Positions 43,537 through 56,711 of a stretch of 64,000 bases of DNA are shown here, one piece after another; the stretch's first letter is position 1; each line of letters begins with the position of its first letter. The notes beneath the pieces were generated by a model. That model was not told the DNA's origin, did no database searches, and saw only the letters and a list, made by a program, of their open reading frames with translations. The translations under genes were made by a program, and so were the position numbers. This DNA comes from Rhodococcus sp. CH91 (lineage in GTDB: Bacteria > Actinomycetota > Actinomycetes > Mycobacteriales > Mycobacteriaceae), in the NCBI RefSeq assembly GCF_022554085.1, contig NZ_JAKFYR010000003.1, forward strand, positions 292,074 to 356,073, read 5' to 3'.

Positions 43537-43560
43537 TTGCCTGGCGAGTAACATAGAGAT

Positions 43561-43578
43561 GTTACCGACGAGTAATAA
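43561..43578. promoter_or_regulatory. Shared TetR-type operator before fadE5
   Basis: On the minus strand this reads TTATTACTCGTCGGTAAC. The same pattern occurs before fadA2/fabG4 (53687) and the tetR gene (56694). Here a second CGAGTAAC lies 24 bases upstream (43545-43552), giving a related half-site. Position just upstream of fadE5 fits a repressor site over its promoter. Confidence 0.7.
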
Positions 43579-43633
43579 CTTGGGCGGTACTTGAAACCGG
43601 CCGGACCGCACCGCACTGGGAGACACCGACGAC

Positions 43634-45469
43634 ATGGGCCACTACAAGAGCAACCTCCGCGACCTCGAGTTCAATCTCTTCGAGTTCCTGAAGATTCAGA
43701 AGGTCCTCGACGCCGGCAAGTTCGGCGACATGGACGAGGACACCGCACGCGGCATCCTCGCGGAGGTCAAGGCGCTGGCCGAGGGGCCCGCTGCCGAGGG
43801 CTTCGCCGACGCCGACCGCAACCCGCCGGTCTTCGACCCCGAGACCCATTCGGTGTCGCTTCCCGAGCCGTTCAAGAAGTCGTTCCGCGCCTGGTGGGAC
43901 GCCGGTTACTGGTCGATGGGCATTCCCGAGGAGATCGGCGGCACCGACGCACCCCGCAGTCTCCTGTGGGCCGTCAACGAGATGATGCTCGGCGCCCAGC
44001 CCGCGGCGTTCATGTACGCGGCCGGTCCGGCCTTCGCGGGCGTGCTCTACGACAACGGCACCGATGAGCAGAAGAAGTGGGCCGCCACCTGCGTCGAGCG
44101 CGGCTGGGGTGCCACCATGGTGCTCACCGAGCCCGACGCCGGTTCCGACGTCGGCGCCGGTCGTACCAAGGCGATCAAGCAGGACGACGGCTCCTGGCAC
44201 ATCGAGGGCGTCAAGCGGTTCATCACCTCCGCCGACTCCGACGACCTGTTCGAGAACATCTTCCACCTGGTCCTCGCCCGCCCCGAAGGTGCCGGCCCCG
44301 GCACCAAGGGCCTGTCGCTGTTCTTCGTCCCGAAGTTCCACTTCGACTTCGAGAAGAACGAGATGGGCGAGCGCAACGGCGTCTTCGTCACCAACGTCGA
44401 GCACAAGATGGGCATCAAGGCCTCCGCGACCTGCGAGGTCACCTTCGGCGGCCACGGCGTCCCGGCCCAGGGCTGGCTCGTCGGCGAGGTCCACAACGGC
44501 ATCGCGCAGATGTTCGACGTCATCGAGCACGCCCGCATGATGGTCGGCACCAAGGCCATCGCGACCCTGTCGACCGGTTACCTCAACGCGCTCGCGTACG
44601 CCAAGGAGCGCATCCAGGGCGCCGACCTGACTCAGATGTCCGACAAGACCGCGCCGCGCGTGTCGATCATGCGCCACCCCGACGTGCGTCGTTCGCTGGC
44701 GATGCAGAAGGCCTACTCCGAGGGTCTGCGCGCCGTTTACCTGTACACCGCCGCGCATCAGGACGACGCTGTCGCCGAGCAGGTCTCGGGCGCCGACGCC
44801 GGTCTCGCGCACCGCATCAACGACCTGCTCCTGCCGGTCGTCAAGGGTTGCGGCTCCGAGCGTGCCTACCAGTACCTGAAGGACTCCCTCCAGACCCTCG
44901 GCGGCTCGGGCTTCCTGCAGGACTACCCGATCGAGCAGTACATCCGCGACTCGAAGATCGACTCGCTGTACGAGGGCACCACCGCCATCCAGGCGCAGGA
45001 CTTCTTCTTCCGCAAGATCGCCCGCGATCGCGGCGTGGCCCTCGCCCACCTCGCCGGTGAGATCAAGAAGTTCGTCGAGCGCGACGACGCCGACCAGCGT
45101 CTCAAGAAGGAGCGCACGCTCCTGGCCACCGCGCTCGGCGAGACGCAGACGATGGTCGCGACGCTCACCCAGTACCTCATGGGCGCGCAGGAGCAGCCCA
45201 CCGAGCTGTACAAGGTCGGTCTCGGATCGGTCCGCTTCCTCGAGGCGTTCGGCGACCTGATGATCGGCTGGCTGTTGCTCGAGCACGCCGAGATCGCCCT
45301 CGCCGCGCTCGACGCCGGTGCCGGAGCCTCCGACAAGGCGTTCTACGAGGGCAAGGTCGCCGCGGCGTCCTTCTTCGCCAAGAACGTCCTGCCCGAGCTG
45401 AGTGTCGCGCGTCAGCTCATCGCCGACGTCGACCTCGACATCATGGAGCTCGACGAAGCCGCGTTCTGA
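43634..45469 (+). CDS. fadE5: Acyl-CoA dehydrogenase FadE5
   Basis: Encodes 611 residues, matching long mycobacterial FadE5, which oxidises medium to long acyl-CoAs with FAD. The FAD/acyl-CoA region shows Thr-Glu-Pro-Asp-Ala-Gly-Ser-Asp-Val and the catalytic base Glu447 in Leu-Tyr-Glu-Gly-Thr-Thr-Ala-Ile-Gln. An extra C-terminal helical domain of about 140 residues explains the length. The start Met-Gly-His-Tyr-Lys-Ser-Asn matches this family. The codon bias is very strong, as for a highly expressed gene. A terminator follows, so it is monocistronic. Confidence 0.95.
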
Positions 45470-45489
45470 CACGCCTCCGTCCAGCGACC

Positions 45490-45524
45490 GCAGTGACCCC
45501 GCCGTTCTCCGGCGGGGTCACTGC
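45490..45524 (+). terminator. Rho-independent terminator after fadE5
   Basis: A perfect 15-bp stem, 45490-45504 with 45510-45524, has a 5-base loop and is followed by CGTTTC. It lies 20 bases after the fadE5 stop and may also serve the convergent dehydrogenase gene. Confidence 0.85.
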
Positions 45525-45548
45525 CGTTTCTGCGCTCACCGCATCCGC

Positions 45549-46664
45549 TCAGAACAGGACGACGCCGCGCAGATTCCTGCCCTCGTGCATGTCGACGAAG
45601 CCCTGGGCGATGTCGTCGAGCTTGTAGGTGGTCGTGACGAGTTCGTCGAGTTTCAGTGCACCCGAGATGTACAGGTCGATGAGCCACGGGATGTCGGCGG
45701 TCGGCGCGGAAGCACCGAAGAGCGAACCCTGCAGGCGCTTCTGGTAGAGCACCAGTTCCATCGCACTGATGGGGATACCGAAATCGGTCATCTTCCCGAG
45801 GCCGGTGACGACACAGGTTCCCGCCTTCCGGATCGCGGAGAACGCCTCGGCGATGTGCTCTCCGGTCGTCACCCCGACCGTCACGATTGCGGAGTCCGCG
45901 CCCTGGCCGTTGGTGTACGACCGGGCGATCTCCGTCGCTTCCGCCATGCCGGCGACAGCGTGGGTGGCACCGAAGCGCAGTGCCGCCTCCCGCTTGAACG
46001 GCACCGGATCGACAGCGATGATCCGCGCGGCCCCCGCATGCGCGGCGCCCTGGACGGCGTTGATCCCGATTCCGCCGATACCCTGGACGATCACGGTCTG
46101 CCCCGGATACACCTCCGCCGAGTTGACCGCGGCACCCCATCCCGTGCCGACACCGCAACCGAGCAGGCACAGTGTGCCGAGCGGAAGATCCTTGTCCACC
46201 TTGACAGCCGAGTCCACACTCACCGTGGTGTACTGACTGAAGGTCGACAGCCCGCACGTCTGCGCCACCGGTACTCCGTCGAGGCTCAGCCGGAAACTCG
46301 ACGGATCGTCGGGACGGCTGCCCGTCATGATCGCCGCACCGCGGTCGCACAGATTCTGCAGTCCCTTCGCACACCAACGGCATCGGCCGCAGGCCGCCAG
46401 GAACGAGAAGACCACGTGGTCACCCACATTCCAGCCGGGTGTCTCCGGGCCGACCTGCACGACGACGCCGGCGCCCTCGTGCCCACCGCAGATCGGGTAA
46501 CTTCCGACCGCGTGGTCGCCGGTGGCGATGTGGTCGTCGGAGTGGCACAGACCCGCCGCCACCATCTCGACCATGAGCTCACCGCGGCGCGGCTCGTCGA
46601 GTTCGAGATCGACCACCTCGTAAGTGCCGGGTGCGCTGCGGATGATCGCGCCGCGAGTTCTCAT
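45549..46664 (-). CDS. NDMA-dependent-type alcohol dehydrogenase
   Basis: Encodes 371 residues of the zinc medium-chain family. Catalytic zinc ligands are Cys40 and His62 with a later Cys in Leu-Leu-Gly-Cys-Gly-Val; structural zinc ligands are Cys92, Cys95, Cys98 and Cys106. The cofactor loop is Gly-Ile-Gly-Gly-Ile-Gly. The overall sequence, with Gly-Ala-Ile-Ile-Arg near the start and a Cys-Gly-Gly-His-Glu-Gly block, fits the actinobacterial NDMA-dependent group, which holds NAD tightly and hands electrons to an unknown acceptor. The aldehyde dehydrogenase upstream suggests a two-step alcohol oxidation. Confidence 0.87.
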   Translation of the reverse strand: MRTRGAIIRSAPGTYEVVDLELDEPRRGELMVEMVAAGLCHSDDHIATGDHAVGSYPICGGHEGAGVVVQVGPETPGWNVGDHVVFSFLAACGRCRWCAKGLQNLCDRGAAIMTGSRPDDPSSFRLSLDGVPVAQTCGLSTFSQYTTVSVDSAVKVDKDLPLGTLCLLGCGVGTGWGAAVNSAEVYPGQTVIVQGIGGIGINAVQGAAHAGAARIIAVDPVPFKREAALRFGATHAVAGMAEATEIARSYTNGQGADSAIVTVGVTTGEHIAEAFSAIRKAGTCVVTGLGKMTDFGIPISAMELVLYQKRLQGSLFGASAPTADIPWLIDLYISGALKLDELVTTTYKLDDIAQGFVDMHEGRNLRGVVLF

Positions 46665-46710
46665 CGGTTGTCTCCTGAGGGTGTCGAAGGACTGTGCACA
46701 TAGGGTGGGG

Positions 46711-48141
46711 TCACGGGGTCACCTGGGCGGACATGCCGGCCCGGTAACCCTCGGCGTAGGGCGGCAGCATGCCCCATTCACGACGGGGATCGACGTCCGG
46801 TGCGACGAAGACCGTTCTGGCGTGGCTGAACTCGAGGAAACCCTCCCGGCCGTTGTAGTGCCCCGTACCGGACGGCCCGATGCCTCCGAACGGCGCATCG
46901 AGCATGCCGGGATGCATTGCGATGTCGTTGACGGTGACACCACCGGAAATGGTGCATTCCAGCACGATTCGTTGCTCGTCCTCGTCCCGGCCGAAATAGT
47001 AGAGCGCCAGCGGTTCGGGGCCGGAGTTGATCGCGCCCAGCACCTGGCCCAGGTCGTCGTAGGTACGCACGACCATGACCGGACCGAAGATCTCCTCCTT
47101 CGATACGGCGGCGGACTCGGGTGGATCGATGACGACGCGGAGGGGGCGGCGCCGGTCGTCGGTGGCGATGGGCTCGTCCGGAGCCGTCACGACCCGCACG
47201 CCGAGTTCCTGCGCCTGGCGGATGTATCCGTCGATCCGTGCCGCATGGCGGTCGTCGACGATCGCGGTGACATCCGGGTTTCCGGCAATCGTCGGAAACA
47301 GTTCGGTGTAGGTCTCGCTCACCTGCTCGAGGAACGGGTCGAGCTTCTCCGCCGGGACGTACACGGTGTCGGCGGAGACGCACAACTGACCGCTGTTGGT
47401 CGACTTGCCGACCGTGATGCGGTAGGCGGCCGTGTCGAGATCCGCGGAACGACCCACGATCACCGGCGACTTACCACCGAGCTCGAGCGTGACGGGCACG
47501 AGATTGAGAGCGGCGTTCGCCATCACCGACCGGCCGGCGGCTTCGCCGCCGGTGAACACGATGTGGTCGAACGGCAGGGAGGTCAGGGCTTTCGCGACAT
47601 CCGGTCCACCGGTGACCACCGCGATCTCGGCGGGATCGAGGAAATCCGCAGCGGCCTCCGCCAGCGCCCTCGCGGTGCGCGGCACCACCTCGGAGGGCTT
47701 GAGGACAGCGCGGTTGCCCGCAGCCAGAACCCCAGCAAGCGGGCTCAGCAGCGTGAACACCGGAGCGTTCCACGTTCCGATGATCGCGATCGAACCCTTG
47801 GGCCGGTACTGAACCGACGCGGTGGCCCCCAGCTGGTCGTACGGCGGGAACGGGGTGCGCTGCTCCGAGCGCATCCAGTCCTCGAGATGGTCGCGCGCGT
47901 ACTTCAGCGCCGAGAGCGAACCGAGCACGTCGTTGGTGGTGGAGTATCCGGGGTGCCGCCCACCGAAGTCGGCGTCGATCGCGTCCACGATCTCGTCGGT
48001 GCGGGCGACGAGCATGTCGATCACGCGCTGAATGCGCTCCCGGCGCTGCGAAGCCGAACTGCTGCGCTGTGAACGGAACTGTCGCTGCTGCTTCTCGAGC
48101 AACTCACCGAGGACGGGATCGGCGCTGGTCACAATGGTCAT
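46711..48141 (-). CDS. Aldehyde dehydrogenase, coniferyl-aldehyde type
   Basis: Encodes 476 residues. Catalytic Glu220 (Thr-Leu-Glu-Leu-Gly-Gly-Lys) and Cys254 (Asn-Ser-Gly-Gln-Leu-Cys) are in place, with the Trp-Asn-Ala-Pro cofactor segment at 124-127. The short N-terminus and the pattern Asp-Ala-Ile-Asp-Ala-Asp-Phe-Gly-Gly resemble CalB-type coniferyl aldehyde dehydrogenases and class 3 enzymes; the true substrate may be any fatty or aromatic aldehyde. ATG 48141 was chosen over an upstream in-frame ATG lacking conserved sequence. It precedes the NDMA-type dehydrogenase by 46 nt, same strand. Confidence 0.9.
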   Translation of the reverse strand: MTIVTSADPVLGELLEKQQRQFRSQRSSSASQRRERIQRVIDMLVARTDEIVDAIDADFGGRHPGYSTTNDVLGSLSALKYARDHLEDWMRSEQRTPFPPYDQLGATASVQYRPKGSIAIIGTWNAPVFTLLSPLAGVLAAGNRAVLKPSEVVPRTARALAEAAADFLDPAEIAVVTGGPDVAKALTSLPFDHIVFTGGEAAGRSVMANAALNLVPVTLELGGKSPVIVGRSADLDTAAYRITVGKSTNSGQLCVSADTVYVPAEKLDPFLEQVSETYTELFPTIAGNPDVTAIVDDRHAARIDGYIRQAQELGVRVVTAPDEPIATDDRRRPLRVVIDPPESAAVSKEEIFGPVMVVRTYDDLGQVLGAINSGPEPLALYYFGRDEDEQRIVLECTISGGVTVNDIAMHPGMLDAPFGGIGPSGTGHYNGREGFLEFSHARTVFVAPDVDPRREWGMLPPYAEGYRAGMSAQVTP

Positions 48142-48254
48142 GAGGCGGACGGTATGAGGAGCATCACACCCCACGCACGCAATTCCCGCTCACCGGGACC
48201 TCTCGACGCCGGAACGTCGGCGAGAGACGATCGGGCGGCGCCGAACGAGGATAT

Positions 48255-48272
48255 TGACAACATGCATTGTCA
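48255..48272. promoter_or_regulatory. Inverted repeat between aldehyde dehydrogenase and MpaB genes
   Basis: TGACAA-CATGCA-TTGTCA is a perfect 6-bp inverted repeat ending 16 bases before the GTG of the MpaB gene, in an AT-richer patch. Repressor sites of TetR/GntR type look like this. No regulator gene is adjacent, so the binding protein is unknown. Confidence 0.5.
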
Positions 48273-48288
48273 GTAGGACGCTGACCAC

Positions 48289-49497
48289 GTGACCATCACC
48301 GGTACGTCGACCACCCGGTACATGCGCGACCGCAAGAAGGCCGCGCGCATCACCGCGCCACTGCGTCCTTTCGCAGGACGAGCGCCGGATGCCACCCCCG
48401 ACGAAGAGCAGGCCTTGCGCCGCGCCCTGCTCGAACGCGACGAACCCAGCGCCGAACTCGTGCGCGCCATCCGACAGGACCGGACCGTCACCCTCGCGCA
48501 GTTCCGGACGGCGCTCGCAGAGGGAATCGACGCCGTGCCGGACGCCCCTGATGTGCTCCGGAAATATTTCGCGATGCTCGAGGACACCCCCGGCTGGGTC
48601 GACCGCGACAAGATCGCGCTCGGTGCGCGCACCCTGCGCAGGGTCGGCTCCGATGTCGGCGATGTTCTCGCCTACGGTTCCCTGCTCGGTGGCTACAACA
48701 ACTCCGGCCCCCTACCGGTCCTCACGTCGTCCGGGCGGCTCACCGGCGAACGCACCCGACGACGCATCGCCGAAACGGGCACCTGGTGGAACGCATGCGT
48801 CACCGACGGGGGTCTCGAACGCTTCGGAGAAGGGTTCAGGCTCTCCGTGCACGTGCGTCTCATGCACGCCTTCGTCGACTATCACCACGAGCACGACGCC
48901 GGCTGGGACACCGAGTTCCGTGGCCTACCCGTCAACCAATTCGACCAGGCGGGCACGCTGGGCCTGTTCTCGATCACCTTCCTGCTGCACACCCGTGTCC
49001 TGGGTGTGCGATACACCCGGCGCGAGGCCGAGGCCGTACTGCACCTGTGGGCCTACGTCGGGTGGCTGATGGGCGTCGACCCGACATGGCTGCGCTTCGA
49101 CGAGCGGGCCGGACTGCGGATGATGTACCAGATCGGCTCGTCGTCCCCCGCGGCCGACGAGAACAGCCACCTGCTCGCCGCATCGCTCGTGGAACTCCCC
49201 CTCCTGATGCCGTATCCGCGTTTCCGCACGCTCCGCCGCCGGTACGAATACGAACGCGGACTGTCGCTGGCGACGACCCTGCTCGGCCCATCCGGAGTCC
49301 GCGCCCTGAAGGTTCCCATGCGACCGCCCTGGTATCCGGTCGGCCGCTTCGCCGTCAATGTCGCCAAACACCATGTGATCGGCCGTTTTCCGGCCGGAAA
49401 AGCATGGTTGCAGCGACTCGGGGAGAAGCAGTTGCGCGACGCGCAGCTGAGCATTCTCGACGGAGAGATCCCCGACGTGGTGCCGTTGCCGGAGTGA
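48289..49497 (+). CDS. MpaB/Lcp-like oxygenase (DUF2236)
   Basis: Encodes 402 residues, longer than the first family member at 14968. DUF2236 features include Ala-Tyr-Gly-Ser-Leu-Leu-Gly-Gly-Tyr, Thr-Trp-Trp-Asn, Arg-Leu-Met-His-Ala-Phe-Val (probable haem ligand His), and Trp-Leu-Met-Gly-Val-Asp. The length and Lys-Val-Pro-Met-Arg-Pro end resemble latex-clearing-type proteins, but those are exported and this one has no signal peptide. A haem oxygenase on an unknown hydrophobic substrate is the safest reading. GTG 48289 is the chosen start, just after the inverted repeat. Confidence 0.82.
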   Translation: MTITGTSTTRYMRDRKKAARITAPLRPFAGRAPDATPDEEQALRRALLERDEPSAELVRAIRQDRTVTLAQFRTALAEGIDAVPDAPDVLRKYFAMLEDTPGWVDRDKIALGARTLRRVGSDVGDVLAYGSLLGGYNNSGPLPVLTSSGRLTGERTRRRIAETGTWWNACVTDGGLERFGEGFRLSVHVRLMHAFVDYHHEHDAGWDTEFRGLPVNQFDQAGTLGLFSITFLLHTRVLGVRYTRREAEAVLHLWAYVGWLMGVDPTWLRFDERAGLRMMYQIGSSSPAADENSHLLAASLVELPLLMPYPRFRTLRRRYEYERGLSLATTLLGPSGVRALKVPMRPPWYPVGRFAVNVAKHHVIGRFPAGKAWLQRLGEKQLRDAQLSILDGEIPDVVPLPE

Positions 49498-49518
49498 TCG
49501 AGGAGGCAGGAGGGTGGC

Positions 49519-52077
49519 CTACTCCGGGGTCTCTCCCTGCGCGGGCGCCTCGGGTTCCGCCGGAGCGGCGGTGTCGGGACCGGAGTCCGAATCACCCGAA
49601 TCCGAACCCTCGCCCTCACCGGACGGCGCGGGTTCGTCGCGCTGCTCCGGCTCGGGACTGACGCACTTGACGATCGGAACCGGGTCGTAGCGCACAGTGC
49701 GGGTCGTGTTCGAGATCTGCGCACCGGTCCGGGCATCGGTGACGATCCGGGTGTCGCTGACCGTGAAGCCCTGCGCACCGCTCGACGGGATGCAGCTGGG
49801 ACCGGCAGGCAGCGTGATGGTGTTGGGCGAGGTGAAGTTCGTGCGCTGTCCCGTGATGGACTGCACGTCGACCGTCTTCGTCCCCCAGATGCGCACGGTG
49901 ATGTCGGAGCTGGTACCGATCGCCTGGATCAGCACACCCGTGTCGAAGGGATTGCGGAACTTCAGATCGATGGCACCGTCGTAGATCGTTGCCTCACGCG
50001 CGGCCGGATACCGCGAGATGTAGTAACTGTGCTCGGTGTGCTCGACGTCCTCCATCCCGGCGAAATAGGTCGCGTTGTACAGAGTGGTCGCGAGCTGGCT
50101 GATGCCACCGCCCACCGCCTTGCCGGGGCGTCCGGCCTCGATGATGCCCGACTCGACGTAACCCTGCGCCGCACCCCGCGGCCCGGTGTAAGCGTTGAAG
50201 GAGAACGTCTCCCCCGGCTTGACGATGGCGCCGTTGATCTCCTGGGCCGCCAGCCGGATGTTGACGCCGGAGGCGTACTCGAACCCGCTGGTGGTGAACT
50301 CCGACACCACTTCCTTGATGCCCAGCTTCTCGGCGCCCTCGGTGGTGAGCTCCGGCTCGGCCTTCTCGTACACCGCGTCGATGCTGCGGTCGCCCTCCTC
50401 TTTCAACAGGTCGGGCAGATTCTCCAGCGTGACCGGCCAGTCGACGAGCTCACCGGTCCGGCTGGGCACGATCGACGGGCGACCACCCTCGAGGACGATC
50501 TGTGCGTCCTTCGGTTCGTTCTCCGAAGATGCGAGTTGCGGCGCGAGGATCCCGATCGCGGCGTCGGTGTTGTACTGCGGTTCGAGGCCACCCGAACCGT
50601 CCGGAACGAACGACAGCACCGCACCCACGGCATCGCGCGGAAGCACACCGGTGACACCGTCGAGTCCCCGCACGACCAGATCCTGGGAGACGGCGGGAAC
50701 CGCGATCTCGGCGAGCGCCCGGTCCAGCCCCTCACGGGTGACCGTGACGTCCACGCTCTCGACAGGCAGCGACACGTCACCGAACGGCCATCGCTCCGCG
50801 AACACGTCGGCGGCCAGCACCGGGTCGACCTGCTGCCCGGGCTGGGGCGTCACGGGCACGGGTGTGCCCTCCTCGAAGAGGATGTTGCCTTCGCGAGGTT
50901 CGTGAGCCGCCGCGGCGGTCGCCTTCTCGATGGCAGCGGTGAGTGCGGCATCGTCCCGGGTGGAGACCACACCGATCTCCTCGTCACCGAAGAACGACGC
51001 CAGTCGCGTGAACGGATTCAGAGGTTGCGATCCGACGCGGTCGAAGGTCGCGGCCCAGTCGATGCCGATACCGGCCTCCGCCGGCACGATCTGCCCCTCC
51101 GTGTCACCCGCGGTCACCACGACCGGAGCCTCGAGGCGCGGTGTGAGTTCCTCGGTCAACTTCGCCTCGGCCGAATCGAGCGACATGCCGCCGATCTCGA
51201 TGCCGGCGACAGTGACACCTCGCGGGACCTTGCCCGACGACACAGCGAGATCGGCCACGTACAGGACGGCGAGCAGCGCGACCACTCCACCGACGACGAG
51301 AGCGATCGTGCGCTTCGGCAGATTCGACCACGGTCGGCCCGAATCACCTCCGGAGCCTCCGGGGCCTCCCGTCGGAGGTGGTGTGACGGGCGGCGGACCC
51401 TGGGGAGGCGATCCGGCCTGCAGATGCTCCGTCGGTGCGTCCGGCTGCGCCGGGCGGCCGGCCGGGGGCATCGCCGTCGTCGCAGGCGGAGGATTCTCTC
51501 CTCGCCCCTGGGGGATCCGAGCGGTCGCCGCGGCGGACCCGTCACCCGGGCTGCGCTCGGCGGGCCGGACGACCGGGATGACCGCGGTGGGCGCTTCCGA
51601 CGGGGGGACCTCCTCGGCCGGAGTGGCCTCGCCGTCCTGGGCTGAGGTCTCCTTCGAGCCCTCGGCCGGAATCGCCTCCGTGTCCTCGGGCGCTCCTTCC
51701 CTGGAGCTGCCGGCCGGTGCTACCTGCTCGGCCGCATCGCTCGCCTTCGGCTCGGCCGCATCGCTCGCCTTCGGCTCGGCCGCATCGCTCGCCTTCGGCT
51801 CGGCCGCATCGCTCGCCTTCGGCGCGGTGACACCGGTCGCCTTCGGCTCCGCCACATCGGCCGCCTTCGGCTCTGCCGCATCACTCGCCTTCGGCTCGGT
51901 GACATCGCTCGCCTTCGGCTCGGTCACCTCACGTGGAGGAACGACCGCTTCGAAACGCTCGGTGGGAGCCGACGCGCCATCGTCCTCACGAGCCGATTCC
52001 GCCGGCACACCGGGGTCGTCGACCCGTGCGTCATCGTGCTCGTGATGGGAATCGTCGGTCCCGTTACTGCCGCTCAC
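49519..52077 (-). CDS. VanW-family membrane protein with repeat-rich N-terminus
   Basis: Encodes 852 residues. A cytoplasmic, low-complexity N-terminal region (1-250) contains eight copies of an octapeptide at 51-114, then Pro-rich sequence; one membrane helix spans 257-278. Outside are two peptidoglycan-binding-4-type repeats (about 290-590) and a VanW domain (about 600-705: Glu-Thr-Phe-Ser-Phe-Asn, Gly-Gly-Gly-Ile-Ser-Gln, Tyr-Asn-Ala). An acidic tail follows. This matches the YoaR/VanW class anchored in the membrane and facing peptidoglycan; no enzyme activity is established. GTG 52077 has AAGGGAT before it. Confidence 0.88.
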   Translation of the reverse strand: MSGSNGTDDSHHEHDDARVDDPGVPAESAREDDGASAPTERFEAVVPPREVTEPKASDVTEPKASDAAEPKAADVAEPKATGVTAPKASDAAEPKASDAAEPKASDAAEPKASDAAEQVAPAGSSREGAPEDTEAIPAEGSKETSAQDGEATPAEEVPPSEAPTAVIPVVRPAERSPGDGSAAATARIPQGRGENPPPATTAMPPAGRPAQPDAPTEHLQAGSPPQGPPPVTPPPTGGPGGSGGDSGRPWSNLPKRTIALVVGGVVALLAVLYVADLAVSSGKVPRGVTVAGIEIGGMSLDSAEAKLTEELTPRLEAPVVVTAGDTEGQIVPAEAGIGIDWAATFDRVGSQPLNPFTRLASFFGDEEIGVVSTRDDAALTAAIEKATAAAAHEPREGNILFEEGTPVPVTPQPGQQVDPVLAADVFAERWPFGDVSLPVESVDVTVTREGLDRALAEIAVPAVSQDLVVRGLDGVTGVLPRDAVGAVLSFVPDGSGGLEPQYNTDAAIGILAPQLASSENEPKDAQIVLEGGRPSIVPSRTGELVDWPVTLENLPDLLKEEGDRSIDAVYEKAEPELTTEGAEKLGIKEVVSEFTTSGFEYASGVNIRLAAQEINGAIVKPGETFSFNAYTGPRGAAQGYVESGIIEAGRPGKAVGGGISQLATTLYNATYFAGMEDVEHTEHSYYISRYPAAREATIYDGAIDLKFRNPFDTGVLIQAIGTSSDITVRIWGTKTVDVQSITGQRTNFTSPNTITLPAGPSCIPSSGAQGFTVSDTRIVTDARTGAQISNTTRTVRYDPVPIVKCVSPEPEQRDEPAPSGEGEGSDSGDSDSGPDTAAPAEPEAPAQGETPE
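51736..51927 (-). repeat. Eight 24-bp in-frame repeats
   Basis: 192 bases hold eight tandem 24-base units coding variants of Ala-Ala-Glu-Pro-Lys-Ala-Ser-Asp. The last four copies (lower coordinates) are nearly identical in DNA; the outer copies have drifted (Val-Thr-Glu-Pro, Val-Ala-Glu-Pro, Val-Thr-Ala-Pro). This points to recent slippage within one side of an older repeat. Unit length is a multiple of three, so copy changes keep the VanW frame. Confidence 0.93.
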
Positions 52078-52284
52078 CCGGATCCCTTCGCAAAGCTGGC
52101 GCACCCTCGGATTCGCGCGCCGACTACCTGCTTCAAGGGTAGTGCCCCGCTTCGACACGGCTGCGCGGGGAAGGGCGCATGCGGGGGTGGTCCGGGAATG
52201 CGAAGACCCCGCGTTGCTACCAGGTCGGGGGTCAGGCAGCAGCGCGGGGTCGCTGGGTCTATCGCTGTGGAGCCTCCGGCGTTA

Positions 52285-52317
52285 CACACCGGTCGGAATT
52301 TTTTTCCGGCCGGTGTG
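52285..52317 (-). terminator. Terminator after fadA2
   Basis: CACACCGGTCGGAA at 52285-52298 pairs with 52304-52317 with one G-U type mismatch around a 5-base T loop. It is 14 bases beyond the fadA2 stop and upstream of the VanW gene start, on the same strand. Confidence 0.75.
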
Positions 52318-52330
52318 CACGACCTCCGGA

Positions 52331-53644
52331 TCAGGCCTCGAGGATGGCCGTCACACCCTGCCCGCCCGCGGCACAGATGGAGATCAGACCGCGCACGGGC
52401 TTGCCGGTCTCCTGCTTCTTCTCGTGCAGCATCTTCGCCAGCGAGGCGACGATCCGCCCGCCGGTCGCGGCGAAGGGATGACCGGCGGCCAGCGACGAGC
52501 CGTTGACGTTGAGCTTGCTGCGATCGATCGATCCCAGAGGCGCGTCGAGGCCCAGCTTGCCCTTGCAGTACTCCTCGGACTCGAACGCCTGCAGCGTGGC
52601 GAGAACCACCGAGGCGAACGCCTCGTGGATCTCGTAGAAATCGAAGTCCTGCAGCGTCAGGCCGTTGCGCTGCAGAAGACGCGGGATCGCATAGGTGGGA
52701 GCCATGAGCAGGCCGTCGCCACCGTGGATGTAGTCGACCGCAGCGGTCTCGGAATCCACCAGGTAGGCGAGCACCGGGAGCTTGCGCTCGGCGGCCCACT
52801 CCTCGCTCGACAGCAGGGCGGCGGACGCACCGTCGGTCAGAGGCGTCGAGTTACCGGCAGTCATGGTGGCGTCACCGAGCTTGTTGCCGAAGACCGGCTT
52901 CAGCGTCGCCAGCTTCTCGACCGACGAGTCGGGACGCAGGTTGTCGTCGCGCGTCAGGCCGAGGAACGGCGTGACGAGATCATCGAAGAATCCGCGGTCG
53001 TAGGCCGCGGCCATGTTCCGGTGGCTGGCGACCGCGAGTTCGTCCTGCGCCTCCCGGGCGATGCCGAATTCCTTCGCGGTGATCGCGGCGTGCTCACCCA
53101 TCGACAGGCCGGTGCGCGGCTCCCCGTTGCGAGGGATCTCGATGCCGAGCATCGACGGACGTACGTTGCCGAGGAGCTTGACGCGGTCGGCCGTGGAACG
53201 GGCGCGATTGAGGGACAGCAGGAACTCGCGCAGCTGATTGTTGACCGCGATCGGGGCGTCGGAGGTGGTGTCGACGCCACCACCGATGCCGGCCTCGATG
53301 CGTCCTGCGGCGATGGCATCGCCGACAGCGATGATCGACTGCAGGCCGGTGCCGCACGCCTGCTGGAGATCCCAGGCGGGGGTGTACGGGCTCAGTGCGC
53401 TACCGAGAACGCATTCGCGCATGAGGTTGAAGTCGCGGCTGTGCTTGAGGACCGCACCGCCGACCACCGCGCCGAGCCGTTCGCCCTGGAGGTTGAAGCG
53501 ACCCACCAGTCCGTCGAGGGTGGCGGTGAACATGTCCTGGTTCGAGGCGCGCGCATATTTGCGGTCGGAGCGGGCGAACGGGATCCGGTTGCCTCCGAGA
53601 ACGGCGACACGGCGCTCTTGCTTGGAACGGGCTTTGGTGGTCAC
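52331..53644 (-). CDS. fadA2: Acetyl-CoA acetyltransferase FadA2
   Basis: Encodes 437 residues of the thiolase family. Nucleophile Cys97 lies in Gln-Ala-Cys-Gly-Thr-Gly, His389 in Ala-Ala-Gly-His-Pro-Phe and the second Cys424 in Ile-Cys-Ala-Ala-Gly-Gly-Gln-Gly, so thiolytic and condensing chemistry are both possible. Length and neighbours match mycobacterial FadA2 (Rv0243 type): it is divergent from fabG4-htdX. It probably cuts 3-ketoacyl-CoA in fatty-acid degradation. A shared operator lies in the 124-nt gap to fabG4. Confidence 0.94.
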
Positions 53645-53686
53645 TGGTGTCTCCCGGTTTCGGACGGATTCGAATTCTGGCTACTA

Positions 53687-53704
53687 TTCTTACTCACGGG
53701 TAAG
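53687..53704. promoter_or_regulatory. Shared TetR-type operator between fadA2 and fabG4
   Basis: Reads TTCTTACTCACGGGTAAG. It contains the inverted arms CTTAC and GTAAG around six bases and sits between the two divergent starts, so one protein bound here could control both directions. It matches the sites at 43561 and 56694. Confidence 0.72.
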
Positions 53705-53768
53705 TTTGTTGTCGAACACGCTTGCTGTCGAACACTGCACCGACGACCGAATCGAAGAAGGTGGAATC

Positions 53769-55115
53769 GTGGCCGAAGCCAAGGGCGCACCCAAGCTCTA
53801 CGCCCAGCTCATCTCGTCCGCACCCGGAGCGTTCCTCGCCAAGCAGTTCGGTCTGCCACAGCCCGAGAAGCTCCGCCGCTACCAGCCCGGCGAGCCTGCG
53901 CTCCCCGGCCCCGTCCTGCTCGGCGGCAACGGCCGCCTCGTCGAACCGCTCCGCACCCTCCTGAGCGACTACACGTTCGCCGAACCGTCCGACACGAAGT
54001 TCGGTGCTCTCGTCTTCGACGCTACCGGGATCACCGACCCGGCGGGCCTCGAACAGCTCTTCACGTTCTTCCAGCCCAGCCTGCGCAATCTCGCACCCAG
54101 CGGTCGCGTCGTCGTCCTCGGCACCACGCCCGAAGAGGCCGGATCCGTCGACGAGCGCATCGCCCAGCGTGCACTCGAGGGCTTCACGCGCAGTGTCGGC
54201 AAGGAGCTGCGCCGCGGCGCGACCGTGCAGCTCGTCTACGTCTCCCCCGAGGCCTCCACCGGCCTGTCCGGTGTCGAGTCGACGCTGCGTTTCCTGCTCT
54301 CGGCGAAGTCGGCCTTCGTCGACGCGCAGGTGATCCGCATCGGTTCCGGCGAAGCGACCGCCCCCGAATCCTGGGATCGTCCGCTCGCCGGCAAGGTCGC
54401 TGTCGTCACCGGCGCGGCCCGAGGTATCGGTGCGACGATCGCCGAGGTGCTCGCCCGCGACGGTGCGACCGTCGTTGCCGCCGACGTCCCCGCCGCCGGA
54501 GACGCCCTCGCCGAAACCGCCAACAGGGTCGGCGGCACCGCGTTCGCGCTCGACGTCACGGCCCCCGATGCGGGCGACAAGCTCGCCGCGCACCTGCTCG
54601 AGCGCCACGGCGGCGCCGACATCATCGTCCACAACGCCGGCATCACCCGCGACAAGCTGCTCGTGAACATGGACGCCGCCCGCTGGAACGCAGTGATGGC
54701 GGTCAACCTCATCGCCCCGCAGAAGATCACCGAGGTGCTCGTCGAGAAGGGTGCGCTGAAGGAGGGCGGCCGGGTGATCGACGTGTCGTCGATCGCGGGT
54801 ATCGCCGGTAACCGCGGCCAGACCAACTACGGCGCTTCCAAGGCCGGCGTCATCGGCCTCGTCCAGGCCACCTCCGAGGTCCTCGCCGGCAAGAAGATCA
54901 CCGTCAACGCCGTCGCTCCCGGTTTCATCGAGACCGCCATGACGGCCGCGATCCCCGTCGCCACGCGCGAGGCCGGCCGCCTGATGAGTTCGCTTCAGCA
55001 GGGCGGCGAGACCGTCGACGTCGCCGAGACCGTGGCGTGGTTCGCGAATCCGGCGTCGAGCGCCGTGACCGGTCAGGTCGTGCGCGTGTGCGGCCAGTCC
55101 ATGCTGGGGGCATAG
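53769..55115 (+). CDS. fabG4: 3-oxoacyl-ACP/CoA reductase FabG4
   Basis: Encodes 448 residues, the two-domain high-molecular-weight FabG form. Residues 1-200 form an N-terminal domain with a flavodoxin-like fold that no longer has the reductase motifs. The C-terminal part holds the Rossmann loop Thr-Gly-Ala-Ala-Arg-Gly-Ile-Gly at 214-221 and active residues Ser340/341, Tyr354 and Lys358, and uses NADH in the mycobacterial enzyme. It reduces 3-ketoacyl-CoA/ACP. GTG 53769 follows GAAGGTGG. The htdX start is directly after its stop, giving one operon. Confidence 0.95.
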
Positions 55116-55973
55116 ATGGCGCGGATCGAACTGTCCTCGCTGCCGTCGACCTTCGACATCTACAGCCGGGCCGTGCTCGGGGCACTGCCCGTGGTCGGCG
55201 CCTCGGGCGAGAGCCTGCCCGACGACGTCCTCTCGTTGCGGTCGCTGAAGGTCGATCCCGACAATCTCGCCGAGTACACCAAGGTGTGCGGTCTGCGTTT
55301 CGGCGACACTCTGCCGGTGACCTATCCGTTCATCCTCACGTTCCCGCTCGTGATGAAACTGATGGTGGGCCGCGGCTTCCCGTTCGCGGCGGTCGGGTCC
55401 GTCCACGCCGAGAACGTCATCGAGCAGTTCCGGCCGATCTCGGTCACCGAACCGCTCGACATCGCGGTGCACGCGGAGAACCTGCGCGAACACCGCAAGG
55501 GCCTGCTCGTCGATCTCGTCAGCGAGGTCAACGTCGGGCGCGAACTCGTGTGGCGGCAGACGTCGGCCTTCCTGCACCAGCAGCGCACCTCGCTGTCGGG
55601 CCGGCCCAGGCCGGAGCCGAAGGAGGAGGAGATCCCCGTGGTTCCCACCTCCACCCTGCGGGTCGATCAGAAGATCATCGACCGTTACGCCGCGGTCTCG
55701 GGCGACCGTAATCCCATCCATGTGTCCACCTTGGGCGCCAAGGCATTCGGGTTCCCGAGGACCATCGCCCACGGCATGTGGAGTGCGGCGGCCGCCCTGT
55801 CCGCCGTAGAGGGCCGGATTCCCGGCAAGGTCACCTACGCGGTGCGTTTCGGTAAGCCCGTCCTGCTGCCGTCGTCGTTGAGCCTGTACGCGCAGCACGT
55901 CGCGGACGGATGGGATCTCGCGCTGCGGCATCCGAAGAAGCAGTACCCGCATCTGACCGCCACCCTGCGGTAG
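55116..55973 (+). CDS. htdX: (R)-3-hydroxyacyl dehydratase HtdX (MaoC-like)
   Basis: Encodes 285 residues with a double hotdog fold. The hydratase-2 motif is in the second half: Tyr-Ala-Ala-Val-Ser-Gly-Asp197-Arg-Asn-Pro-Ile-His202, then Ile-Ala-His-Gly-Met. The first half is a decayed hotdog used for structure. It dehydrates 3-hydroxyacyl thioesters after FabG4. In M. tuberculosis, fabG4 and htdX are paired in the same way (Rv0242c-Rv0241c). The ATG abuts the fabG4 stop, so translation is coupled. Confidence 0.94.
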   Translation: MARIELSSLPSTFDIYSRAVLGALPVVGASGESLPDDVLSLRSLKVDPDNLAEYTKVCGLRFGDTLPVTYPFILTFPLVMKLMVGRGFPFAAVGSVHAENVIEQFRPISVTEPLDIAVHAENLREHRKGLLVDLVSEVNVGRELVWRQTSAFLHQQRTSLSGRPRPEPKEEEIPVVPTSTLRVDQKIIDRYAAVSGDRNPIHVSTLGAKAFGFPRTIAHGMWSAAAALSAVEGRIPGKVTYAVRFGKPVLLPSSLSLYAQHVADGWDLALRHPKKQYPHLTATLR

Positions 55974-56057
55974 TACCGGACACTCGGGCGGGGCGGGACG
56001 CGATGGGGGCGTTCCGCTCCGCCCGAACCGATTGCACCGCAGGGATGTTCGCGGAGA

Positions 56058-56666
56058 TCAGTTCGCCTGGTCCGAACGCTTCCTGCCCGCCAGGCCGCGC
56101 CACGCGAGATTCTCCAGCAGATCCGCCGCCTGCTGCACGTCGATCTCACCCCCGGCAATACGGTCGGCGACGGCCTCACCGGCGCCGACGAGCGCGACAG
56201 CCATGATGGTGAAGTTCGTCCCCGGTTCCGGATCGCGAGTGCTCGATTCGAGCAGATGTGCGGTGAGCTCGATGAGCCGATCACGGCTGCCCTGCACCTG
56301 GGGAGCGAAGGCCTGTTGCGAGAGTGCCTGACGGTACAGGACCATCCACGACGGCCGGTGCCGGTCGACGAAGCCGAGGAACGACTCGAGCGCGACGCGG
56401 AGTTGTTCGCGCGGCGCGAGGTTCGGCGCCCCGGCGGGGGTGAGTGCTTCGACGAACCGCTGCCCTTCGCGGGCGATGCACGCGGCGAACAGTTCGTCCT
56501 TCGACCCGTAGTACAGGTAGAGCATCGGCTTGGAGATCGACGCCCGTGCCGCGATCGCGTCCATGGACGTGTTGTGAAAGCCGTTCTCGGAGAACACTTC
56601 GACCGCGGCGTCCAGCATCTGCTGCTCGCGCACCGCACGCGGCAGTCGCTTGGTTCCGCCAGCCAT
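56058..56666 (-). CDS. TetR-family regulator (Rv0238-like)
   Basis: Encodes 202 residues. The helix-turn-helix spans about 28-55 (Phe-His-Asn-Thr-Ser-Met-Asp-Ala-Ile-Ala, Ser-Lys-Pro-Met-Leu-Tyr-Leu-Tyr-Tyr), followed by a helical ligand domain. Its place between htdX and an lpqI-type gene matches Rv0238 in M. tuberculosis. The 18-bp element in its own promoter recurs before fadE5 and fadA2/fabG4, so this protein is the best candidate to bind all three. An acyl-CoA ligand would fit but is not shown. Confidence 0.92.
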   Translation of the reverse strand: MAGGTKRLPRAVREQQMLDAAVEVFSENGFHNTSMDAIAARASISKPMLYLYYGSKDELFAACIAREGQRFVEALTPAGAPNLAPREQLRVALESFLGFVDRHRPSWMVLYRQALSQQAFAPQVQGSRDRLIELTAHLLESSTRDPEPGTNFTIMAVALVGAGEAVADRIAGGEIDVQQAADLLENLAWRGLAGRKRSDQAN

Positions 56667-56693
56667 GACTCCTCCCAGCCCTCTCGACTCGAG

Positions 56694-56711
56694 TTCTTAC
56701 TCTACGGTAGG
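56694..56711. promoter_or_regulatory. Shared operator before the tetR gene
   Basis: Reads TTCTTACTCTACGGTAGG, 28 bases upstream of the tetR start, matching 13 of 18 positions or better with the fadE5 and fadA2/fabG4 sites. The position suggests autorepression. Confidence 0.68.

Follow-up and report, generated by a model that had tools for sequence, protein, structure and literature searches.

The 64-kb window analyzed here, a stretch of the genome of Rhodococcus sp. CH91, carries beta-oxidation genes and a TetR-type regulator gene whose promoter regions share a palindromic element, a putative operator. Domain searches of the window genes returned acyl-CoA dehydrogenase, thiolase, SDR reductase, MaoC dehydratase, TetR, and GH3 proteins. 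The names fadE5, fadA2, fabG4, and htdX are taken from a preliminary description of the sequence, and they fit the synteny in M. tuberculosis. That description had placed three 18-mers of the pattern TTMTTACTCNNNGGTARS before fadE5, between the divergent fadA2 and fabG4-htdX genes, and before tetR. All three were found at these places with 0 mismatches, at 43561-43578 on the minus strand and at 53687-53704 and 56694-56711 on the plus strand. The window holds no further exact match to TTMTTACTCNNNGGTARS, and with up to three mismatches allowed it gave five matches, whereas 100 shuffles averaged 1.17 and only one of them reached five.

The asymmetric pattern matches all three sites but captures only part of a palindrome with the core TTACYNNNNRGTAA, of which the three sites are imperfect copies (Table 1). 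The core, scored out of 9, also reaches 8 at an unrelated position, 2874-2887 (TTACTCGCGAGTAC), distant from the three promoters. At 43548-43565, a second inverted repeat, GTAACAT-AGAG-ATGTTAC, connects the putative fadE5 operator with a half-site upstream of it.

Table 1. Genes and putative control elements in the window
Feature	Position	Strand	Basis or remark
Putative palindromic operator before fadE5, GTTACCGACGAGTAAT with flanks	43562..43575	+	Score 9/9; 58 bases upstream of fadE5 start
Putative -10-like hexamer TAACTT adjoining the fadE5 operator	43576..43581	+	Shifted three bases relative to the usual place in relatives
fadE5-type acyl-CoA dehydrogenase, 611 aa	43634..45469	+	Open reading frame (ORF); acyl-CoA dehydrogenase domains
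fadA2-type thiolase, 437 aa	52331..53644	-	ORF; domain and curated-family searches
Putative palindromic operator between divergent fadA2 and fabG4	53690..53703	.	Score 9/9; 45 and 65 bases from fadA2 and fabG4 starts
Putative -10-like hexamer TAAGTT, fabG4 side, overlapping the operator	53701..53706	+	TANNNT here in 72/72 sites
fabG4-type reductase, 448 aa (probable start)	53769..55115	+	PRK08261-type 3-oxoacyl-ACP reductase, above cut-off
htdX-type MaoC dehydratase, 285 aa, directly after fabG4	55116..55973	+	ORF; domain search
TetR, 202 aa, likely operator reader, probable FdmR/Rv0238 counterpart	56058..56666	-	PF00440 and PF21943; synteny; solved relative 3f1b
Putative imperfect palindromic operator before tetR	56697..56710	-	Score 8/9; 30 bases from tetR start

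Conservation of the palindrome

The promoter regions of the window were compared with those of 80 named relatives, of which the closest by the window TetR are Rhodococcus. Loci whose flank stopped short of the gene, or in which the match did not begin close to the gene start, were excluded before counting, 9 of the 81 in the case of fadA2-fabG4 and 61 in that of fadE5. In the fadA2-fabG4 intergenic region, the palindrome scored 9 in all 72 loci, most commonly in the form AACTTACTCCAGAGTAAG; upstream of fadE5, it scored 9 in 16 and 8 in 4 of 20 regions, and upstream of tetR, 9 in 56 and 8 in 5 of 81. A score of at least 8 was thus reached in 72/72, 20/20, and 61/81 regions, which bears out the conservation at the three promoters that the preliminary description had proposed to check. 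Random stretches of equal length, drawn from the same loci without removal of the true sites, reached this score in 2.0% of 1440 cases for fadA2-fabG4, 1.5% of 400 for fadE5, and 1.6% of 1620 for tetR. Outside Mycobacterium, the palindrome stands before tetR in 56 of 56 loci at this score. Among orthologs of the window TetR in more distant families (43-53% identity), several have one to three palindromes before tetR, some of them in tandem, and in others none was found. At five loci (L049, L050, L052, L053, and L055), two or three tandem palindromes lie about 15-16 bases apart upstream of the tetR ortholog.

A search of whole genomes was another check proposed at the outset. The pattern TTMTTACTCNNNGGTA occurs in the genome of CH91 at five places exactly and at eight with up to one mismatch (the reversed pattern, used as a control, at one place with one mismatch), and exact matches are present in all 18 searched genomes of the genus (53 places, including the five of CH91; control 0). 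Loci were available for 29 of the 48 places outside CH91, and 25 of the 29 adjoin fadE5 (13), fadA2/fabG4 (7), tetR (3), or lsr2 (2); the other four adjoin none of the six genes tested. A literature search with the string TTACTCCAGAGTAA returned no match.

Predicted regulon beyond the window

The core TTACYNNNNRGTAA was found at 11, 10, 11, and 12 sites in four genomes of the genus, and its reversed form at 0, 1, 3, and 3. Of these 44 sites, 32 (one of them, before fadE5 of G014, assigned by identical letters and spacing only) fall into eight promoter families that are common to all four genomes and all belong to fatty-acid breakdown: fadE5; fadA2/fabG4; etfB, for electron-transfer flavoprotein (ETF); etfD; a 464-aa acyl-CoA dehydrogenase; an enoyl-CoA hydratase divergent to a tRNA-editing protein, whose start codon the site touches; a second enoyl-CoA hydratase; and a secretory lipase. 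The families were tested on the proteins of CH91; for the other genomes, copies were assigned by eye on the basis of their protein starts, or by tblastn for fadE5 and fadA2; at one locus (L201), the palindrome lies inside a frame called by the gene caller. The other 12 sites, named from protein starts, we take to lie at two isocitrate dehydrogenase-like genes (two genomes each), in a WhiB/GroEL neighbourhood (three), and at five single places. Each of the four genomes has a palindrome before what appears to be an isocitrate dehydrogenase-like gene, of one type at L191 and L216 and of another at L198 and L207.

Within the order, the palindrome scores at least 8 in 28 of 30 regions upstream of etfB (30 genomes) and at 27 of 30 etfD loci (29 genomes), compared with 4.1% and 5.9% of random stretches. 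Passages of two papers describe EtfD as essential for beta-oxidation and, together with ETF, as the acceptor of electrons from FadE5 (PMC8593149, PMC13083937), and the presence of ETF and EtfD among the putative targets fits with this role. The predicted regulon is therefore larger than the three promoters of the window and includes ETF and EtfD. The small fatty-acid regulon of the preliminary description is supported as to the kind of genes but not as to size.

Further sites were noted near other genes. At four loci (L194, L204, L214, and L244; C1:515560 in CH91 and three genus mates), a one-mismatch palindrome stands 43-46 bases before what we recognize as an lsr2-like gene and overlaps the end of an upstream gene, presumably for a nucleoside hydrolase. 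Because of this overlap, a coding constraint may explain the site, and we left it out of the regulon. At C1:59070 of CH91 (L195), a one-mismatch site of the pattern in the preliminary description lies between cutinase-like and fatty acyl-AMP ligase-like genes, presumably the place of the mycolic-acid cluster. In two genomes of apparently mycobacterial type (G051 and G024; L226 and L231), the palindrome TTACTAGCCAGTAA or TTACTGGCTAGTAA lies between genes that we take to encode a fatty-acid desaturase and the reductase belonging to it. At C5:14319 of CH91 (L007), a related inverted repeat, TTACTCGAAAGTAG, separates a nitronate-monooxygenase-like gene from a 462-aa frame that has two TetR-like halves.

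FdmR as the likely reader of the operator

The gene order GH3-tetR-htdX-fabG4-fadA2 is found in many of the 80 named relatives, including Mycobacterium, and by this synteny the window TetR is probably the counterpart of Rv0238, or FdmR. Dong et al. reportedly described FdmR of Mycobacterium marinum in 2021 as a TetR repressor of fatty-acid degradation. The two regulators are alike in gene neighbourhood, in TetR type, and in their predicted fatty-acid-breakdown targets including fadE5. Conserved putative operators stand before fadE5 and other fatty-acid-degradation genes. They differ in that the present one belongs to Rhodococcus and has a site at its own gene that is mostly absent in Mycobacterium. 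In the literature passages searched, FdmR (Rv0238) is a repressor of fatty-acid degradation that responds to long-chain acyl-CoA (PMC12403877), fadE5 is among its targets in mycobacteria (PMC9262360), Rv0238 is one of five TetR regulators conserved across all mycobacteria analyzed (PMC4482099), and no operator sequence is given for FdmR. The preliminary description had known no described regulator for these sites, a view that has to be corrected, since the regulator matched by synteny is described in mycobacteria.

The helix-turn-helix residues are invariant among 18 aligned orthologs of the window TetR, and a close relative of solved structure, 3f1b, is annotated merely as a TetR-like regulator. 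The closest curated family is FasR, but the window TetR is rejected as a FasR, as it scores 93.2 bits against a cut-off of 330 with model NF053731, and a separate FasR of 387 bits is encoded elsewhere in the CH91 genome. FadR (YsiA) of Bacillus subtilis, an acyl-CoA-responsive TetR repressor that controls beta-oxidation together with etf genes, works in a similar way; however, the FadR model NF053878 gives 42.2 bits against a cut-off of 200, and the window TetR is no member of that family. MadR, presumably Rv0472c, was rejected as well: its consensus as printed in the passages searched, TCTGTGxxxxxxxGT, does not fit the three window sites when compared by eye, and its targets are others. In passages of the respective papers, FasR (Rv3208) is an acyl-CoA-responsive TetR activator of fas-acpS (PMC7382501), and MadR is a TetR repressor of desA1 and desA2 that is relieved by long saturated acyl-CoAs (PMC8872791). 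FasR shares with the window TetR a related protein type and, as predicted for the latter, a long-chain acyl-CoA effector, but it activates synthesis.

We consider it quite probable that the neighbouring TetR, the FdmR counterpart, uses the three sites as operators for an acyl-CoA-released repression at or beside the -10 box of beta-oxidation genes. An FdmR dimer would read the palindrome TTACYNNNNRGTAA on or beside the -10 box and, when bound, would bar RNA polymerase from fadE5, from both divergent promoters of fadA2 and fabG4-htdX, and from its own gene; long-chain acyl-CoAs would release it and turn the beta-oxidation genes on. The same switch would act outside the window on etfB, etfD, a further acyl-CoA dehydrogenase, two enoyl-CoA hydratases, and a secreted lipase. 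This proposal starts from the palindrome, its conservation, the gene content, and the site before tetR that we observed; repression and the acyl-CoA response would be as in the mycobacterial papers, from which they are carried over, and binding by the window TetR, the -10 block, and the reading of all targets by FdmR would follow from it. As for the -10 box, a TANNNT hexamer was counted when it started in the right half of the palindrome. It is present on the gene side of 18 of 20 fadE5 sites and on the other side of 2, and at every fadA2-fabG4 site on the fabG4 side (Table 1). Only its last T is informative, because the palindrome itself supplies the TA.

Several observations weigh against parts of this proposal. 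The hexamer is clearly one-sided at fadE5 only. At tetR, it occurs on the gene side of 54 of 59 sites but also on the other side of 43; the fadA2 side has it at just 44 of 72 sites; and etfB (7/8 and 8/8) and etfD (5/6 and 5/6) have it on both sides. Within the window, fabG4 has the hexamer at the usual position, fadE5 has it displaced by three bases, and neither tetR nor the fadA2 side has it. At symmetric sites the last T may belong to the operator, and since the hexamer is two-sided or missing at several sites, the -10 block is something that we infer. In Mycobacterium, a palindrome of at least 8 was found at only 5 of 25 tetR loci (20 without), in two of these five it overlaps the start codon, and a second tally with trimmed region ends gave 3 of 25. 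The earlier claim that the TetR protein is the reader and also controls itself is likely, given the conserved site at its own promoter, but the following counts in FdmR-less relatives show that the link is not exclusive.

In 22 genomes with a strong FdmR match, TTACTNNNNAGTAA occurs 56 times against 10 for the control, and in 38 genomes without one it occurs 22 times against 9, with the FdmR-positive genomes being larger overall. Genome families f1 and f5 contribute 27 (control 2) and 11 (control 2) of the 56, and in the other 14 FdmR genomes the excess is small (18 against 6). Genomes with no detectable FdmR still carry the palindrome upstream of etfB (5 of 6 cases) and of etfD (6 of 6) (G001 and G006 were counted as FdmR-positive in this comparison without a test of their own). 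Upstream of fadE5 orthologs (62-68% identity), it stands at ten further FdmR-less loci of families f2, f3, f4, and f16; the palindrome itself served to find these loci, so that no rate follows from them. A weak match (about 1e-21) to the window TetR is present in four of these ten genomes, and the two such matches looked at are of FasR type. In addition, the flanks of the palindrome differ by target, being C/G in 72/72 at fadA2-fabG4, G/C in 8/8 at etfB and 5/6 at etfD, and mixed at fadE5, which may mean that there are two readers.

Possible alternative readers and the age of the operator

The two-reader explanation would assign FdmR to sites of the form CTTAC..GTAAG (fadA2/fabG4, tetR, lipase, and the second acyl-CoA dehydrogenase) and another TetR to GTTAC..GTAAC/T (fadE5, etfB, and etfD); the PF19344-type protein L071 of CH91 is a possible candidate for this second reader. 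It is in line with the flank classes kept at each target and with the GTTAC..GTAAC sites that precede etfB, etfD, thiolases, and fadE5 in FdmR-less genomes. In family f2, moreover, a PF19344-type TetR gene and a fadA2 of 70% identity diverge from an intergenic region that contains the palindrome (L339 and L344), and L071 is 34% identical to this regulator. However, flanks of mixed type occur often and are conserved (G/T at echA and C/C at ECH), there is no palindrome within 1.5 kb of L071, and the related TetR of family f16 (L312) adjoins fadA2 and has no palindrome. Moreover, fadE5 is a named FdmR target in the mycobacterial passages searched, and mycobacterial fadE5 sites are of the G/C form. 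We regard two readers as rather unlikely.

Far less probable is FasR, the activator of fatty-acid synthesis, as the reader in place of the neighbouring TetR, although its helix is similar, FasR-type proteins are present in FdmR-less genomes, and in one genome of family f14 (L368, G031:C42) a FasR-type TetR gene has the palindrome 66 bases upstream. Besides the low score of the window TetR, the true FasR of CH91 has no palindrome in its 1.5-kb flanks, and six more weak-match loci (L062-L067), of FasR type by their helix, have none at the threshold used. A search for fas through PF17951 found none in CH91 or in 14 controls, which is no evidence of its absence. The palindrome at L368 may tie the regulation of fatty-acid synthesis to that of breakdown. 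That promoter letters merely look palindromic, with no operator behind them, has a chance close to nil: the sites do overlap -10-like hexamers and share letters with them, but they are conserved across genera and families, are symmetric on both sides of the center, and exceed the low counts of the reversed-pattern controls.

The palindrome is thus most likely, to judge from the sequence comparisons, an operator of the neighbouring TetR. Since FdmR-less relatives also carry it, the tie to the window TetR is not exclusive, and because in f2 it stands at a different TetR beside fadA2, the operator may predate FdmR. We tentatively propose, giving it somewhat less than an even chance, that it is an order-wide beta-oxidation operator older than FdmR, which joined or replaced another TetR, such as the PF19344-type protein in f2. 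In a search for a reader in FdmR-less genomes, TetR_C_46 proteins of eight genomes had the palindrome at a score of at least 8 near the start at 0 of 29 loci, with a helix pattern that recognized only part of them. If the operator is indeed older, a regulator would have been exchanged over fixed DNA sites.

The observation is real and well above chance, and it mainly extends a known switch. Added here are a probable Rhodococcus member of FdmR, the palindrome and its spread, the putative ETF and EtfD targets, and the operator in genomes without FdmR, and parts of this may already be contained in the FdmR paper. The palindrome provides a concrete candidate operator for the FdmR switch, and it predicts that ETF and EtfD would be controlled jointly with the enzyme that opens beta-oxidation, which would match the electron outlet to fatty-acid oxidation.

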